From assembly GCA_029268045.1 (NCBI GenBank), contig JAJUHF010000001.1:1-64000 (forward strand): a stretch of 64,000 bases of DNA. Direction: 5' to 3'. The notes beneath the pieces were generated by a model, which did no database searches, was not told where the DNA came from, and worked only from the letters and a program-made list of their open reading frames with translations. The stretch is from Anseongella ginsenosidimutans. Its GTDB lineage: Bacteria; Bacteroidota; Bacteroidia; Sphingobacteriales; Sphingobacteriaceae. Shown piece by piece: positions 16,444 to 34,958 of the stretch. The position numbers and the translations under genes were made by a program. Each line of letters opens with the position of its first letter. The first letter of the stretch is position 1.

Positions 16444-18600
16444 TTACTCCAAATTGGCAGTTTGCCGCTGCCAAAGCCGGTAGTACGGTCCCTTCTGTCC
16501 CAGGAGTTCGAGGTGCCGGCCTGTTTCAACTACTCCTCCCCGGCCCAGCACAACAATCCGGTCGGCCTCCTGGATGGCAGGTAAACGGTGCGTGATGATG
16601 AGGATGGTTTTGCCTTTGTCGCGAAGCGAAAAGAAGGTGTTCTGAATCCGGCTTTCAGCAACCGCATCGAGGGAAGCGGTTGCCTCATCCAGTACCAATA
16701 CCTGCGGGTTACGGTACAAAACCCGGGCAATGGCTACACGCTGCCGTTGCCCCCCGGAAAGACGCGTGCCCCCTTCCCCAATACCGGTATGCAGACCTAA
16801 AGGAAGGGTTTCGAGGAAATCCATCATTCCCGCGCCCTTGCATGCGTAGAGGACCCGCTCCATATCAGGCGCGTATTCGCCCATTGCAATGTTTTCCAGT
16901 AGGCTTCCGGGTAAAAGGTGGATTTGTTGGGGGACAATCCCTACGATCCGCCGCAGGCGCTGGGGATCGACGTGCCGGATATTCATCCCGTTGATCGTTA
17001 TCGTTCCCGATTCCGGAGCATATATTCCCAGCAACAGGGAAGACAAGGTACTTTTACCCGAACCGCTTTCCCCGACCAGGGCTGTAATTTCACCTTCCGG
17101 AATGCGAAGCGTCAGGCCCCTAAAGACGGGAGATCGCGTTCCGTACCGGAACGTAATGTTATTGAAACAGATGGGACCGGCTTTTTCGGGACTGAATTGC
17201 GCTTGGCGGCTTACCGAATCAGGCTCCAGATCCATGATCTCAAATAGCCGCCCTGCTGCAATCAGGGCATCCTGCAGCGTTTGGTTCATTTCCACCAAGC
17301 GGGCTACCGGCGCGGTGAAGTAATTCAGCAGCGTGAAAAAGGAAAGCAATTCGCCCGGTGTCATTTCCCTTTCCAGCACAAACGCTGCCCCAGCCCAAAG
17401 AAGCAGTACCTTGAACAGGGACGAAATAAACTCCGAACCGTTTCCTGCCCACAGCGCATTCAAAGACGATGCGTAGCTGGTCCGGAGAAAACGGACCAGC
17501 CCTGCCTCGGTTTTCATCCCGACGAAATCCTCCACTCCGGACTGCCGGATGGTTGACGCTGCCTGGAGGCTGCTGACCAGCTGGCTTTCCAGCTCCGCAC
17601 TTTCCTCCATGATCCGTCGCTGGGTTTTCCTGTTCAAACTGTTTGAAACAAGGTAAACCGATGCGTACAAGGGAACGATCAGCAGGATCAGAAGCGCCAG
17701 TTTCCAATAATAGGTAAACATAAGCCCGAAGGAAAACAGCAGCATGCACAGGTTTACCCCTACCCCCACCAGCACATCGTTGATAAATACTCTTATTTTG
17801 AACGCATCATTTACGCGCGAAACAAGCTCTCCGGTACGCATCGAGTCCACAAAGGATTGCGGAAGCCTGAATAAATGCCGGTAGTAAGCAAGAATCAGCC
17901 GGGCATCAATCAATTGTCCGCTTCGAAGCGTAAGTACCCCTTTTATATGGTTTATAAAGGCCTGTACAATCAACAAGACCAGCAGTACCGATCCCATCAG
18001 GTTCAGCAGATTGGTATTTCCTGAAGGCAAAACATGATCGATGATTTTCTGGACGAAAACCGACAGCGACAAGCCCAGCACAGTATAAAGGACAGCCCCA
18101 AAAAGCGCCTGCAATAGAATCGCACGGTGCGGTTTAAGCAATTGCAGGAAGCGAATCCAAACCGATCCTTCCATGTTGCCGGGCTGAAAACTTTCGGAAG
18201 GAACCAGTATCACCAGGACGCCGCTCCATTGTTCCACGAATCTTTCGCGCGGGACCTTATGGATCCGTCCATCCGCCGGATCCATGATCCGGATATACCG
18301 GGGCGAGACGCCGACGATCACCACAAAGTGAAAATAGCCCGCTGCGAGCACGACGTGTGCCACCGCCGGAAGCGGAATACGGCTTAAGCTTTCGTAGGAA
18401 CCCTTCACCCCTCTTGCGGAAAATCCCAGGCGTTGCGCTGCATCCAGCATACCCCGTACATTGGTTCCCCTGGAATCGGTGGAAGCATATGCGCGGACGG
18501 TTGCCAGGGGAACCCGAAGTCTGTAAAAGGCGGCTACCGAAGCAAGACACGCCGCGGCGCAATCGGTCCGGTCGTGTTGTTTAACCTTTATTCTTCTCAT
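16444..18600 (-). CDS. Peptidase C39 domain ABC transporter (bacteriocin/double-glycine peptide exporter-processor)
   Basis: C39 motif KQHDRTDCAAACLASVAAFY plus His/Asp motif (YFHFVVIVG...IMDPADG); Walker A GESGSGKST; LSGGQRQR; VLDEATASLD. Confidence 0.93.
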   Translation of the reverse strand: MRRIKVKQHDRTDCAAACLASVAAFYRLRVPLATVRAYASTDSRGTNVRGMLDAAQRLGFSARGVKGSYESLSRIPLPAVAHVVLAAGYFHFVVIVGVSPRYIRIMDPADGRIHKVPRERFVEQWSGVLVILVPSESFQPGNMEGSVWIRFLQLLKPHRAILLQALFGAVLYTVLGLSLSVFVQKIIDHVLPSGNTNLLNLMGSVLLVLLIVQAFINHIKGVLTLRSGQLIDARLILAYYRHLFRLPQSFVDSMRTGELVSRVNDAFKIRVFINDVLVGVGVNLCMLLFSFGLMFTYYWKLALLILLIVPLYASVYLVSNSLNRKTQRRIMEESAELESQLVSSLQAASTIRQSGVEDFVGMKTEAGLVRFLRTSYASSLNALWAGNGSEFISSLFKVLLLWAGAAFVLEREMTPGELLSFFTLLNYFTAPVARLVEMNQTLQDALIAAGRLFEIMDLEPDSVSRQAQFSPEKAGPICFNNITFRYGTRSPVFRGLTLRIPEGEITALVGESGSGKSTLSSLLLGIYAPESGTITINGMNIRHVDPQRLRRIVGIVPQQIHLLPGSLLENIAMGEYAPDMERVLYACKGAGMMDFLETLPLGLHTGIGEGGTRLSGGQRQRVAIARVLYRNPQVLVLDEATASLDAVAESRIQNTFFSLRDKGKTILIITHRLPAIQEADRIVVLGRGGVVETGRHLELLGQKGPYYRLWQRQTANLE

Positions 18601-19759
18601 ACGGATTCAGCCAGTCGTTTACATCGTCGAACAGCAGTTGGAATAGCGTCCGCCGGGTGACAGGAAATCGCGCCTGGAGCGTCATCCCCTGCTTCAATCT
18701 GCCCTGATATCCGTTCTTCAGCGCCAGCACCTTGTTTCCCAATTTACAGCGCACCTCAAAAAAGGGATTCCGGTCCGGGCCCTGGAATACATCCCCTGAA
18801 ATATCGGAAACCACGGCCTGTATCGCTCCCCACTGCCGGTAGTTGAACGCGTCGATCTGTAGGTGAACCGGCATGCCGCGCCGGATCAAACCGATGTCTG
18901 CGGGCGGGATGGCGATCCGGGCAAGGAGCCCCGAATCGGGGGAGAGGAGTACAGCCTGTTCCCCCTGATCAAAAAAAGCTCCCGCATGGAGGCCGTCCAT
19001 CTCCTGCAGGATCCCATCTGCCGGCGCGCGCACTTCGTATGATCCACGTTGGGTATGGAGCTTTTTTTCGGCTGAAGCCAATTGCTGGAGTTCCTGGCTC
19101 AGTTCATTCAGGTCAAGTTGCCAGCGGCTGCCCTGTTCCTGATATACTAAATTGAGGCGGTTATGCACCTCCTGAAACGCCATTCTGTGTTTATCAAATT
19201 CCATAGCCGCCACCACCCCCGCTTCAAACAAGTACTCGTAACGCTGGCAACTCGCCTCTGCTTCCCGTAATTCTTCATGGATCCCGCGTGCCCGCTGCTC
19301 GAACAGGTCGTACTGCCGGGCGTATACCGCCGACCGGAGCGGCCCGGGCGGGGTTAATTTTCTTTTATATATCCAGGCGGTCAGTTTTTTCAGGTCGGTG
19401 ATCCGGCCTTGTACAGCAGCCTTTTTTTGCCGGAGGTACACAAGATCCTCTTCAAGCAGGGAAGATTCCAGGGTAAACAACACGTCTCCTTTGGCCACGG
19501 CCTGATTTTCAGTCACGTGGACGGTTGAAACACGACCCGCAACGGGCGCCTTTACCCAGGTGCGCTGCCGGGAGCCGGTCAGGATACCGTTCCCTTTGAC
19601 AACGACCTGCACGGAAATAATAAGCAGCGCCCCTGAGGCAAGGACGAGACACAATAGCACGACCACATACAACAGCCCGGAACGTTTATCCATGCGTTTA
19701 AAATGATGCTCATAGGTATACTCCACCAGTTCGGCTGGCAGCATCCGTGTATTTTTCAT
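18581..19759 (-). CDS. HlyD family secretion periplasmic adaptor
   Basis: Single N-terminal TM, VKAPVAGRVSTVHVTENQAVAKGDVLFTLE lipoyl-like motif and coiled coil; 3' end overlaps the ABC transporter start by 20 nt. Confidence 0.9.
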   Translation of the reverse strand: MKNTRMLPAELVEYTYEHHFKRMDKRSGLLYVVVLLCLVLASGALLIISVQVVVKGNGILTGSRQRTWVKAPVAGRVSTVHVTENQAVAKGDVLFTLESSLLEEDLVYLRQKKAAVQGRITDLKKLTAWIYKRKLTPPGPLRSAVYARQYDLFEQRARGIHEELREAEASCQRYEYLFEAGVVAAMEFDKHRMAFQEVHNRLNLVYQEQGSRWQLDLNELSQELQQLASAEKKLHTQRGSYEVRAPADGILQEMDGLHAGAFFDQGEQAVLLSPDSGLLARIAIPPADIGLIRRGMPVHLQIDAFNYRQWGAIQAVVSDISGDVFQGPDRNPFFEVRCKLGNKVLALKNGYQGRLKQGMTLQARFPVTRRTLFQLLFDDVNDWLNPYEKNKG

Positions 19760-20372: not shown

Positions 20373-20521
20373 ATCAGTAAGTGTTGTTTCCGTGCCTACT
20401 CTGTTACAGGTTTTCGGCATCCCCTGCGAAGTGCTAACCGGTTCACGTCGTAACGTAAAGGTAGGAGGATCAGATTAAAGGTCCAAGAACTTTCTTAAAC
20501 CATTAGGTTTTAAATTATAGC

Positions 20522-24015: not shown

Positions 24016-24909
24016 ATGATCAGTTATTATAAATATCTTCCGGTAACACAAGATGCCGTAGACTGGGGTTTATGTGTCACTGCCGCGGGTTGCGGCCGCA
24101 TCGAGCATGCCGATACCTATCCCCGCCCCGACCATCCGGCACACCATTATTTTGACTGGAATAACGGCCGGGCGCTTCAGGAATACCAGTTGATCTATAT
24201 CCCCCGGGGCGCAGGAGTCTTTGAATCCGAAAGCGCCTCCCGGTTAAAGGTCGACGAAGGAACGATCATCTTCCTTTTTCCCAACGAGTGGCACCGCTAC
24301 AAACCCGACCCGGGTACCGGCTGGGACGAATACTGGGTGGGGTTCACCGGAAGCATTATGGACAACCTGGTGAAAAAGCGCTTTTTCGAACCGAAGCGCC
24401 CCTGTATGCCCATCGGGGTAAATGAACAGGTCGTGAGCCTTTTTGATCAGATCATCACCCACACAAAGGAAGAAAAATCCGGATACCAGCCGCTGATATC
24501 GGGCACGGTGGTCCATCTATTGGGGCTGGTCCATTCCATTTCCAGAGGGAATCGATTCGAAGACCAGCAATCCATGGTTGAAAATATGGTAAACAAAGCC
24601 CGCATTTTGCTCCGCGCGAATGTGGAACAGCAGATATCGCCGGAAAAGGTCGCCAACGAACTGGGACTAAGTTATTCCTGGTTCCGTAAAACCTTCAAAG
24701 CCTATACGGGAATTGCGCCTGGCCAGTACCTGATCCAGCTGAAGATTGAAAAAGCGAAAATGCTGCTTTCCGACCGATCGAAGTCTGTAAAGGAAATCGC
24801 CTATAATCTGAATTTTGATTCCAGCTTCTACTTTTCCAAGCTTTTTAAGGAGAAAACGGGCTTGCCGCCGGAAAAATACCGCAGGAAGATGTTCCCCCAG
24901 GAGAAGTAA
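24016..24909 (+). CDS. AraC family transcriptional regulator (paralogue of 11193-12068)
   Basis: AraC HTH (KMLLSDRSKSVKEIAYNLNFDSSFYFSKLFKEKTGLPPEKYR); N-terminal domain aligns by eye with the first AraC (YYKYLPVTQDAVDWGL / NYHKYVSVSEEDEDWGL). Confidence 0.92.
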   Translation: MISYYKYLPVTQDAVDWGLCVTAAGCGRIEHADTYPRPDHPAHHYFDWNNGRALQEYQLIYIPRGAGVFESESASRLKVDEGTIIFLFPNEWHRYKPDPGTGWDEYWVGFTGSIMDNLVKKRFFEPKRPCMPIGVNEQVVSLFDQIITHTKEEKSGYQPLISGTVVHLLGLVHSISRGNRFEDQQSMVENMVNKARILLRANVEQQISPEKVANELGLSYSWFRKTFKAYTGIAPGQYLIQLKIEKAKMLLSDRSKSVKEIAYNLNFDSSFYFSKLFKEKTGLPPEKYRRKMFPQEK

Positions 24910-24915
24910 CCTAAA

Positions 24916-24952
24916 ACAAACAAGGCTGTTCGGGAGAACAGCCTTTGTTTGT
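24916..24952. terminator. Bidirectional-looking intrinsic terminator
   Basis: ACAAACAAGGCTGTTC-GGGA-GAACAGCCTTTGTTTGT (one-nt bulge). On the minus strand it is followed by TTGTTTGTTTT. Confidence 0.75.
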
Positions 24953-25020
24953 ATGTAACCAAAACCTAACTTATGAGAAAAAAGTTTGCAAAAAGTCGTA
25001 ATGCGATTTGTCGTTCATTT
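24916..25020 (-). ncRNA. Candidate regulon-controlled small RNA or micro-ORF transcript (~100 nt)
   Basis: Minus-strand promoter (regulon box 25051-25070, 19-nt spacer, perfect -7 box TATTTTTG 25024-25031) ending at the 24916-24952 terminator. Contains a 15-codon ORF MNDKSHYDFLQTFFS (24971-25018). Confidence 0.4.
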
Positions 25021-25050
25021 TTTCAAAAATAACAGATCGCGAACTCCTAA

Positions 25051-25070
25051 CTATCCTGTAGTATCCTGCC
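25051..25070 (-). promoter_or_regulatory. Regulon direct-repeat box, copy 1
   Basis: CTATCCTGTAGTATCCTGCC (+ strand); period-10 repeat; -7 box TATTTTTG 19 nt away on minus strand. Confidence 0.7.
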
Positions 25071-25072
25071 TT

Positions 25073-26005
25073 TCAGTCTTGTTCTTCGAAGAAATCCGCA
25101 GGGACGCCGCGGACCCCGGGTTTAACCGAGAAAACACCGCCGCTTAAAGGAAACTCCCGGAGTTGATCCTCGTTGAGCCCCTGACGGGCAGTGGTTATAT
25201 ACAGAATATCCAGATTCTCACCCCCAAAGGCACAGGACGTCGTGTGCGGACCGGGTACGGTGATTTTTTGAAGCAACTTGCCGGTCATTGGATCCCAACG
25301 GGCTACGCAGGATCCGCCCCAATGGGCTACCCATAGTTTTCCTTCCTCGTCGATGGTCATCCCGTCGGGCGAACCCATATCGGACGGAACTTCCACAGCC
25401 ACCCGCGGCCGGCTTATTTCACCTGAATCGTGATCGTAATCGAAAGCCATCACCTTTTGGGTCGGAGTATCCACGTAGTACATTGTTTTCCGGTCGGCCG
25501 ACCAGACAATGCCGTTTGAGATGGTCACCTTGTCCAGCATCTGGTGGATGCTGCCGTCCCCGTCAACGCGATAAAGTGCCGCCTGCTGGTTCCCGGCCAT
25601 CGTACCCACCCAGAAACGCCCTGCTGGATCGCATTTTCCATCGTTATACCGGATCTTCGGATCCTTTTCGGCGTTCACCACGAATTCCATTTCGCCGGTG
25701 GCCGTATTTATTTTATGGACCCCATCCTGTAGGGCCACCAGGGCACCTCCTCCCCGGATCGGCACCACCGTCCCAACCTTCTGTCCCGTGGAGAGCAGAC
25801 GGTCCTGGCCCGTGGCCGGATCGTATATGTGCAGGGTTTTTCCCTCAATATCAACCCAATATAGTTTTTGTTCGATGGGATGCCAAAGCGCCCCCTCTCC
25901 CAGGGTGGCCTTTGCATCCAGTGCCAGGCGCACATCCTGTGCCCCCGCGGTTCCCGATGTCAGTGTAAGAATGACCATTAATAAGGATAAATGCCTGTAT
26001 TTCAT
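25073..26005 (-). CDS. SMP-30/gluconolactonase/LRE family protein (sugar lactonase), exported
   Basis: LGEGALWHPIEQKLYWVDIEGKTLHIYDP; RYNDGKCDPAGRFWVGTM; SNGIVWSADRKTMYYVDT; GSPDGMTIDEEGKLWVAHWGG. Confidence 0.92.
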   Translation of the reverse strand: MKYRHLSLLMVILTLTSGTAGAQDVRLALDAKATLGEGALWHPIEQKLYWVDIEGKTLHIYDPATGQDRLLSTGQKVGTVVPIRGGGALVALQDGVHKINTATGEMEFVVNAEKDPKIRYNDGKCDPAGRFWVGTMAGNQQAALYRVDGDGSIHQMLDKVTISNGIVWSADRKTMYYVDTPTQKVMAFDYDHDSGEISRPRVAVEVPSDMGSPDGMTIDEEGKLWVAHWGGSCVARWDPMTGKLLQKITVPGPHTTSCAFGGENLDILYITTARQGLNEDQLREFPLSGGVFSVKPGVRGVPADFFEEQD

Positions 26006-26062: not shown

Positions 26063-26797
26063 ATGCGGGGATATTCAGGACAACAACGGCTGCTGCTTGC
26101 AGCAGATTGCATTATTTTCGGGTTCGACGGACGGGATATCAAATTGCTGCTCATCCAACGGGGTTTTGAACCGGCGCGGGGCAAATGGAGTCTGATGGGC
26201 GGATTTGTCCAGCCGGGGGAAAGCGCCGACGAATCGGCGCACCGGATACTACGGCAATTGACCGGACTGGACGGCGTGTATATGGAACAGCTCCATACGT
26301 TCAGCGTGCCGGACCGAGATCCGGTGGAAAGGACGGTCAGTGTTGCTTACTTTGCGCTTATTGATATCAACAAATACCAACAGCAACTCAGCGATGAATA
26401 CCATGCCGAATGGTTTCACCTGAAAAAAATACCGGAGCTAATCTTTGATCACCGACAGATGGTGGAAATGGCACGTAAACGCCTCCAATACAAAGCCGCC
26501 CTCCATCCCCTGCTGTTTGAACTGCTGCCCGAAAAATTCACCATTCCCCAACTGATGCATCTCTATGAGGGGATTTACGATACCACCTTTGACAAACGGA
26601 ATTTCAGCCGTAAGCTGCTGTCCACCGGATTGCTCATCAAACAGGATGAGAAGGACAAAAGCAGTTCCCGGAAAGGTGCATACTACTATATTCTGGACCA
26701 GCAGCGCTATGCCCGGAATTTCCAGTCGTTCCTGCACTTCATACCCAACCCCGATCATTTACTGCGCGACGACACCGGGGCTCCTTCCCGGCTATAG
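26063..26797 (+). CDS. NUDIX-domain transcriptional regulator (NrtR/AraR-like)
   Basis: N-terminal NUDIX (GKWSLMGGFVQPGESADESAHRIL) fused to a C-terminal winged helix (FDKRNFSRKLLSTGLLIKQDEK...). TAATTTTG box (26046-26053) supports ATG 26063. Confidence 0.85.
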   Translation: MRGYSGQQRLLLAADCIIFGFDGRDIKLLLIQRGFEPARGKWSLMGGFVQPGESADESAHRILRQLTGLDGVYMEQLHTFSVPDRDPVERTVSVAYFALIDINKYQQQLSDEYHAEWFHLKKIPELIFDHRQMVEMARKRLQYKAALHPLLFELLPEKFTIPQLMHLYEGIYDTTFDKRNFSRKLLSTGLLIKQDEKDKSSSRKGAYYYILDQQRYARNFQSFLHFIPNPDHLLRDDTGAPSRL

Positions 26798-34938: not shown

Positions 34939-34958
34939 CTATCCTGCTCTGTCCTGCC
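34939..34958 (-). promoter_or_regulatory. Regulon direct-repeat box, copy 2 (divergent region PVC gene / GntR-type regulator)
   Basis: CTATCCTGCTCTGTCCTGCC; minus -7 box TATGTTTA at 34912-34919 (19-nt spacer); overlaps the -33 position of a + strand TAATTTTG promoter (34974-34981). Confidence 0.75.

Follow-up and report, generated by a model that had tools for sequence, protein, structure and literature searches.

This locus raises the question of what a regulon-type promoter controls when no gene follows it. In the 64,000-nt stretch of DNA analysed here (the window), the minus strand between an AraC-family regulator gene and a convergent SMP-30/gluconolactonase gene (E-value 1.5e-87 to the family model) carries the box GGCAGGATACTACAGGATAG at positions 25051-25070, in which CAGGATA occurs as a direct repeat with a period of 10 nt. 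A first-pass annotation had described this box, its spacing to a perfect -7 box, a hairpin and a short open reading frame, and all of these elements are present exactly where it placed them. It had offered a small RNA, a micropeptide or the remnant of a deleted operon as possible readings. The genomic setting, in contrast, had been overlooked. The regulon box begins only a few nucleotides past the SMP-30 stop codon (25073) with no evident terminator in between, and therefore the unit is an internal-promoter unit inside the SMP-30 3'UTR. Moreover, the hairpin can also act as the terminator of the convergent AraC gene. The coordinates of all features are collected in Table 1.

Table 1. Features of the gene-less transcription unit and its neighbours in the window; G001 is a second genome of the same genus.
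Feature	Position	Strand	Remarks
Regulon box core CAGGATACTACAGGATA	25052..25068	-	Direct repeat CAGGAYA, 10-nt period; same box before rhaT, ECF sigma, sugar dehydrogenase and other genes; kept in G001
20-nt spacer	25032..25051	-	Length kept, sequence not: 8/20 (40%) identical to G001
-7 promoter box TATTTTTG	25024..25031	-	Perfect TAnnTTTG; TATATTTG in G001
sRNA gene, ~105 nt	24914..25018	-	5' end inferred from -7 box, 3' end from terminator; identical to G001 at 99 of 105 aligned positions; z of the fold, -3.5 and -3.2
Conserved 5' end AAATGAACGACAAAT	25006..25020	-	SusC complementarity not detectable
Unpaired segment GCAAACUUUUUUCUCAUAAGU, inferred seed	24969..24989	-	Complementary to SusC start-codon regions
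Unpaired segment UUAGGUUUUGGUUACAUACAAACA, inferred seed	24946..24969	-	Complementary to SusC leaders 5' of the ATG
Terminator stem-loop	24922..24945	.	Can serve either strand; one copy each in the window's genome and in G001
Identical run, 80 nt, window versus G001	24912..24991	-	No change in alignment; next longest run in ~3 kb is 23 nt
AraC-family regulator, convergent	24016..24909	+	PF12833, PF02311; candidate box reader
SMP-30/gluconolactonase gene, 3'UTR houses sRNA unit	25073..26005	-	PF08450

Further genes of the window encode a rhamnose isomerase, a bifunctional rhamnulose-phosphate aldolase/dehydrogenase, a GH106-type protein, FecR and SusCD. The SMP-30 gene is divergent from a Nudix-type regulator gene (26063-26797, plus strand; NrtR_WHD, AraR_C), which may control it; the upstream region of the SMP-30 gene itself contains no regulon box. 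Amid the rhamnose-related genes, a peptidase C39-containing ABC exporter and its HlyD-type partner (16444-19759, minus strand) look like a peptide export pair. Upstream of these two genes, a match to the Rfam DUF805b cis-regulatory RNA motif was found at 20393-20427 on the minus strand (46.5 bits versus a gathering score of 35.6).

Two genomes were available for the analysis of the promoter, that of the window (G000) and one from the same genus (G001, a single 4.32-Mb contig). The 20-mer box gave one match versus 0.00 expected from shuffled sequences. Regulon boxes were collected from 17 promoters in both genomes together. Copies of CAGGACAGnnCAGGAT(A/G) are located at 34940, 38076, 48007 and 55166 (-) of the window, with more elsewhere in the genome. 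The genes downstream of the 17 boxes include rhaT, ECF sigma factor genes, a cytochrome-type sugar dehydrogenase operon and several genes for large secreted or membrane proteins. RhaT is encoded immediately 3' of a box, followed by the rhamnulose-P aldolase/dehydrogenase and the rhamnose isomerase.

Matches to the motif TAnnTTTG were counted at every offset after the box in all 17 promoters. Offset +20 alone stood out, with a mean of 4.47 out of 6 matches and at least 5/6 matches in 10 promoters, whereas at all other offsets the mean was at most 2.82 and not more than one promoter in 17 reached 5/6. The complete motif at +20 (TATTTTTG and TATATTTG) was restricted to the two sRNA promoters. Hence, the regulon-type promoter of the first-pass annotation is beyond chance. 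Judged by their sequences, the 17 box promoters form a single class, to which the gene-less one belongs. The gene-less promoter shares with the rhamnose regulon of the genus the box and its constant 20-nt spacing to the -7 box, and the regulon has the L-rhamnose genes as co-members. The earlier suggestion that the unit is under the same control as the rhamnose genes thus gains support from the shared box and the fixed -7 offset, and we consider control of the sRNA by this regulon very likely.

The convergent AraC gene is, by its proximity, a candidate for the reader of the box. This assignment stays unproven because no relaxed box was found near AraC homologs in other genera. Several regulon boxes (L009, L011 and 48007 of the window) are located upstream of ECF sigma genes close to SusCD loci, and SusCD may thus be activated by the regulon in an indirect manner, via sigma factors. 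A conserved box (L012 and L072; G000:C106:5768 and G001:62387) precedes, far from the rhamnose cluster, the gene of a multi-spanning membrane protein of ~490-500 aa, which might be a transporter of the regulon that has escaped recognition.

The arrangement of the locus is kept in G001, with an AraC protein of 83% identity, the box and the convergent SMP-30 gene. The counterpart of the box core is found there at 638788-638804 on the minus strand and is identical at 16 of 17 positions; the -7 box is identical at 7 of 8. Third codon positions are only 53% identical in the AraC gene and 44% in the SMP-30 gene. The 80-nt identical run reaches ~40 nt past the hairpin, on the side that is included only in a minus-strand transcript. 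The first-pass annotation had called for an alignment of this interval in relatives, and the -7 box, the hairpin and the interval are indeed retained in G001. The small-RNA reading of that annotation is likewise supported by the conservation of box, -7 box, 20-nt spacing and the 80-nt stretch at the same locus.

Among 300 genomes of the family, the full unit was found only in the genome of the window and in G001. Some hairpins in other genera of the family (L094, L096, L113) resemble the terminator and have a near-identical GGCTGTTC-nnnn-GAACAGCC stem. A scan of 85,462 species genomes for an exact 20-mer, from which the own record was possibly excluded, returned just three Pelagibacter records, which we set aside as AT-rich chance matches, and viral contigs yielded no matches. 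As far as can be seen from these sequences, the sRNA is restricted to the genus.

In the predicted fold of the RNA, the 5' part (~70 nt) is weakly paired and the 3' part forms a terminator stem of ~16 bp (AAGGCTGTTC-TCCC-GAACAGCCTT), which is followed by a T-rich tail on both strands. No Rfam family matched the RNA at gathering score. The unit has three attributes of a stand-alone bacterial sRNA gene: its own promoter conserved across species, an intrinsic terminator at the 3' end and no conserved coding potential. We have little doubt that a conserved sRNA gene is present.

A hint at possible targets came from the unpaired segment. Read on the plus strand (AACCAAAACCTAACTTATGAGAAAAAAGTTTGC), it resembles a Bacteroidota translation start, and some weak short matches in other genera lie where SusC-like genes start (MRKKF...), an observation in favour of SusC targets. 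The SusC set consisted of 56 matches per genome in G000 and G001. Target scoring was based on duplex energies in fixed windows with dinucleotide-shuffled RNAs as controls, on start codons assigned by simple rules and with mRNA structure ignored; when the windows were of free length, the energies carried no information. Compared with shuffled RNAs, the start regions of 93 SusC genes yielded a z of -4.05, those of 113 other genes a z of -0.91. For 21 SusC ortholog pairs, none of 200 shuffles was as good as the conserved core (z about -5). Part of this signal is a generic start-region likeness, because 40 non-SusC ortholog pairs also reached a z of -2.3 (-2.6 when GC-matched). In a ranking of 664 G001 genes, covering ~0.87 Mb of that genome, the SusC genes had an AUC of 0.72 (p 4e-5), versus 0.56 for the shuffles (sd 0.05, maximum 0.64). 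They occupied positions 3, 4, 36 and 56 onward, and non-SusC genes shared the top.

The two unpaired segments matched different parts of the start region. Segment 24946-24969 was complementary to positions -50 to -1 of the SusC genes (z -2.6, 0 of 100 shuffles as good; other genes z -1.7), and segment 24969-24989 to positions -15 to +30 (z -2.0; other genes z -0.5), while the latter did not match the SusC leader. The segments thus pair with the parts of the start region in colinear order, as required for antiparallel pairing. The heptanucleotide AACCTAA is enriched in SusC leaders, with 13 instances in 93 genes versus one in 113 other genes, mostly at -17 to -22. The best conserved candidate target is a susC gene at G000:C7:42970-45945 (-) with its ortholog at G001:1348742-1351717 (-); the pairing energies across the start codon are -23.2 and -24.8 kcal/mol. 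This gene belongs to a cluster with ECF/FecR/SusCD, esterase, GDSL-lipase and alcohol-dehydrogenase genes. A near-perfect complement was not found at any susC start. For the complement of 24963-24983, neither genome contained a trans copy, whether exact or near-exact; the 15-nt version of this complement gave about as many matches as the control, none of them convincing. The complementarity is statistical and moderate, and we give slightly better than even chances to SusC start sites as the main targets.

Several other explanations have to be weighed against this reading. The open reading frame of the first-pass annotation, from ATG 25018 to the stop at 24971 (15 codons, MNDKSHYDFLQTFFS), could be a micropeptide gene, given that it is uninterrupted in the window and that conservation covers its first 15 nt. 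In G001, however, the frame reads ATG AAC GAC AAA TAG and ends after four codons, whereas the sequence downstream is kept base for base regardless of frame. Since the 80-nt run was preserved and the frame was not, we regard a micropeptide as very unlikely. The same comparison excludes the remnant of a deleted regulon operon, which would explain a regulon promoter without a downstream gene: the gene-less unit with its own terminator was retained at the same locus in G001, with 80 identical nt compared to 44-53% identity at the flanking third codon positions. An ordinary bidirectional terminator together with the SMP-30 3'UTR and a chance box would require no sRNA at all and would agree with a hairpin between convergent genes that is usable on both strands. 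It is improbable, given that box and spacing are not due to chance and were kept in G001 despite the diverged spacer sequence, and that the identical run goes well past the hairpin.

Two further explanations accept the RNA and differ in its target. Because the sRNA and the AraC mRNA overlap at their common terminator, the RNA might act in cis on the AraC gene that converges on it, either through an antisense overlap with the 3' end of this gene or through transcriptional interference, as a feedback within the regulon. However, most of 24946-24991 is located downstream of the AraC terminator and hence outside the expected AraC mRNA, and the conserved unpaired segment shows complementarity in trans instead; we attach little probability to this possibility. 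Alternatively, a real rhamnose-regulated sRNA could have a few specific non-susC mRNAs as its main targets, and the SusC signal would reflect the A-rich, AUG-containing make-up of start regions common in Bacteroidota. The non-SusC ortholog pairs, which also scored below the shuffles, are in line with this, as are the non-SusC genes among the top single genes and two genes (672001-673623 and 682431-683714 of G001) with z values below -5. SusC genes nevertheless exceeded other genes in every test, the GC-matched one included, and the colinear register was correct. We therefore consider this alternative unlikely, though a serious one.

Our preferred reading, which we hold to be somewhat more probable than its competitors combined, is that the sRNA belongs to the rhamnose regulon through its own box and -7 promoter and represses susC-type mRNAs by pairing with their start regions. 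L-rhamnose would induce the sRNA alongside the catabolic genes. The RNA, unstructured save for its terminator, would then use 24946-24989 to base-pair with susC-type mRNAs at their leader and start codon. This pairing would hinder ribosome entry, lowering the uptake of competing glycans during rhamnose use. In a wider and more tentative formulation, to which we give slightly less than even chances, a catabolic-sugar regulon encodes a trans-acting sRNA of FopS-independent origin that represses the translation of competing SusC proteins, such that the transcription factor for one sugar sets post-transcriptional priority over many polysaccharide loci. This would provide a concrete mechanism for sugar priority. 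The single-contig genome of G001 suggests a cultivable organism, in which case the claim is directly testable.

Like the L-rhamnose (RhaR) regulons described previously, the present regulon combines the same pathway genes with a direct-repeat operator (PMC3870299). In the parts of that study available to us, the motif period is 21 bp for AraC-type RhaR in Bacteroides and 10-11 bp for DeoR-type regulators, and an sRNA is not mentioned; the 10-nt period of the present box differs from the 21 bp of AraC-type RhaR. GibS of B. thetaiotaomicron is likewise linked to a monosaccharide, largely unstructured and pairs around start codons, but it is ~145 nt long, is most abundant on GlcNAc, has another promoter motif and targets a glucan-branching enzyme and a hypothetical protein (PMC7366714). 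DonS and other antisense RNAs of Bacteroides PULs are thought, according to the portion of PMC7366714 that cites Cao et al. 2016, to repress susC homologs while the cell favours a different carbon source. As described there, such RNAs are encoded opposite their target, whereas the present sRNA has AraC and SMP-30 genes as neighbours rather than an opposite susC and would act in trans.

The closest parallel is to the FopS sRNAs of B. thetaiotaomicron, which repress SusC translation by pairing beside the start codon and are antagonised by the RRM protein RbpB (PMC11697453). This family of Bacteroidaceae consists of 14 paralogs of ~65-70 nt with a seed in the 5' part and canonical, bile-salt-induced promoters (PMC11697453). 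The present sRNA yielded one strong match per genome rather than a multicopy paralogous family, no homology to FopS was found and the Rfam search was without a family at gathering score. Being a longer, single-copy RNA seen in one genus, with a putative internal seed and a rhamnose-regulon promoter, it is not classed as FopS here. In both cases susC-type mRNAs are over-represented among the predicted targets, here through a statistical and moderate complementarity to their translation-start regions; start-codon binding and the translation block were demonstrated for FopS-10 and are predicted here (PMC11697453). FopS-14 also derives from a 3'UTR, and an RRM-type protein exists in both systems (PMC11697453), the class of RbpB being encoded once in G000 and once in G001. 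All reports of post-transcriptional SusC control that we found in the literature are from gut Bacteroides. If our reading is correct, a single-copy sRNA in a sugar regulon outside the Bacteroidaceae would suggest that the targeting of SusC start sites by sRNAs is recurrent in the phylum.
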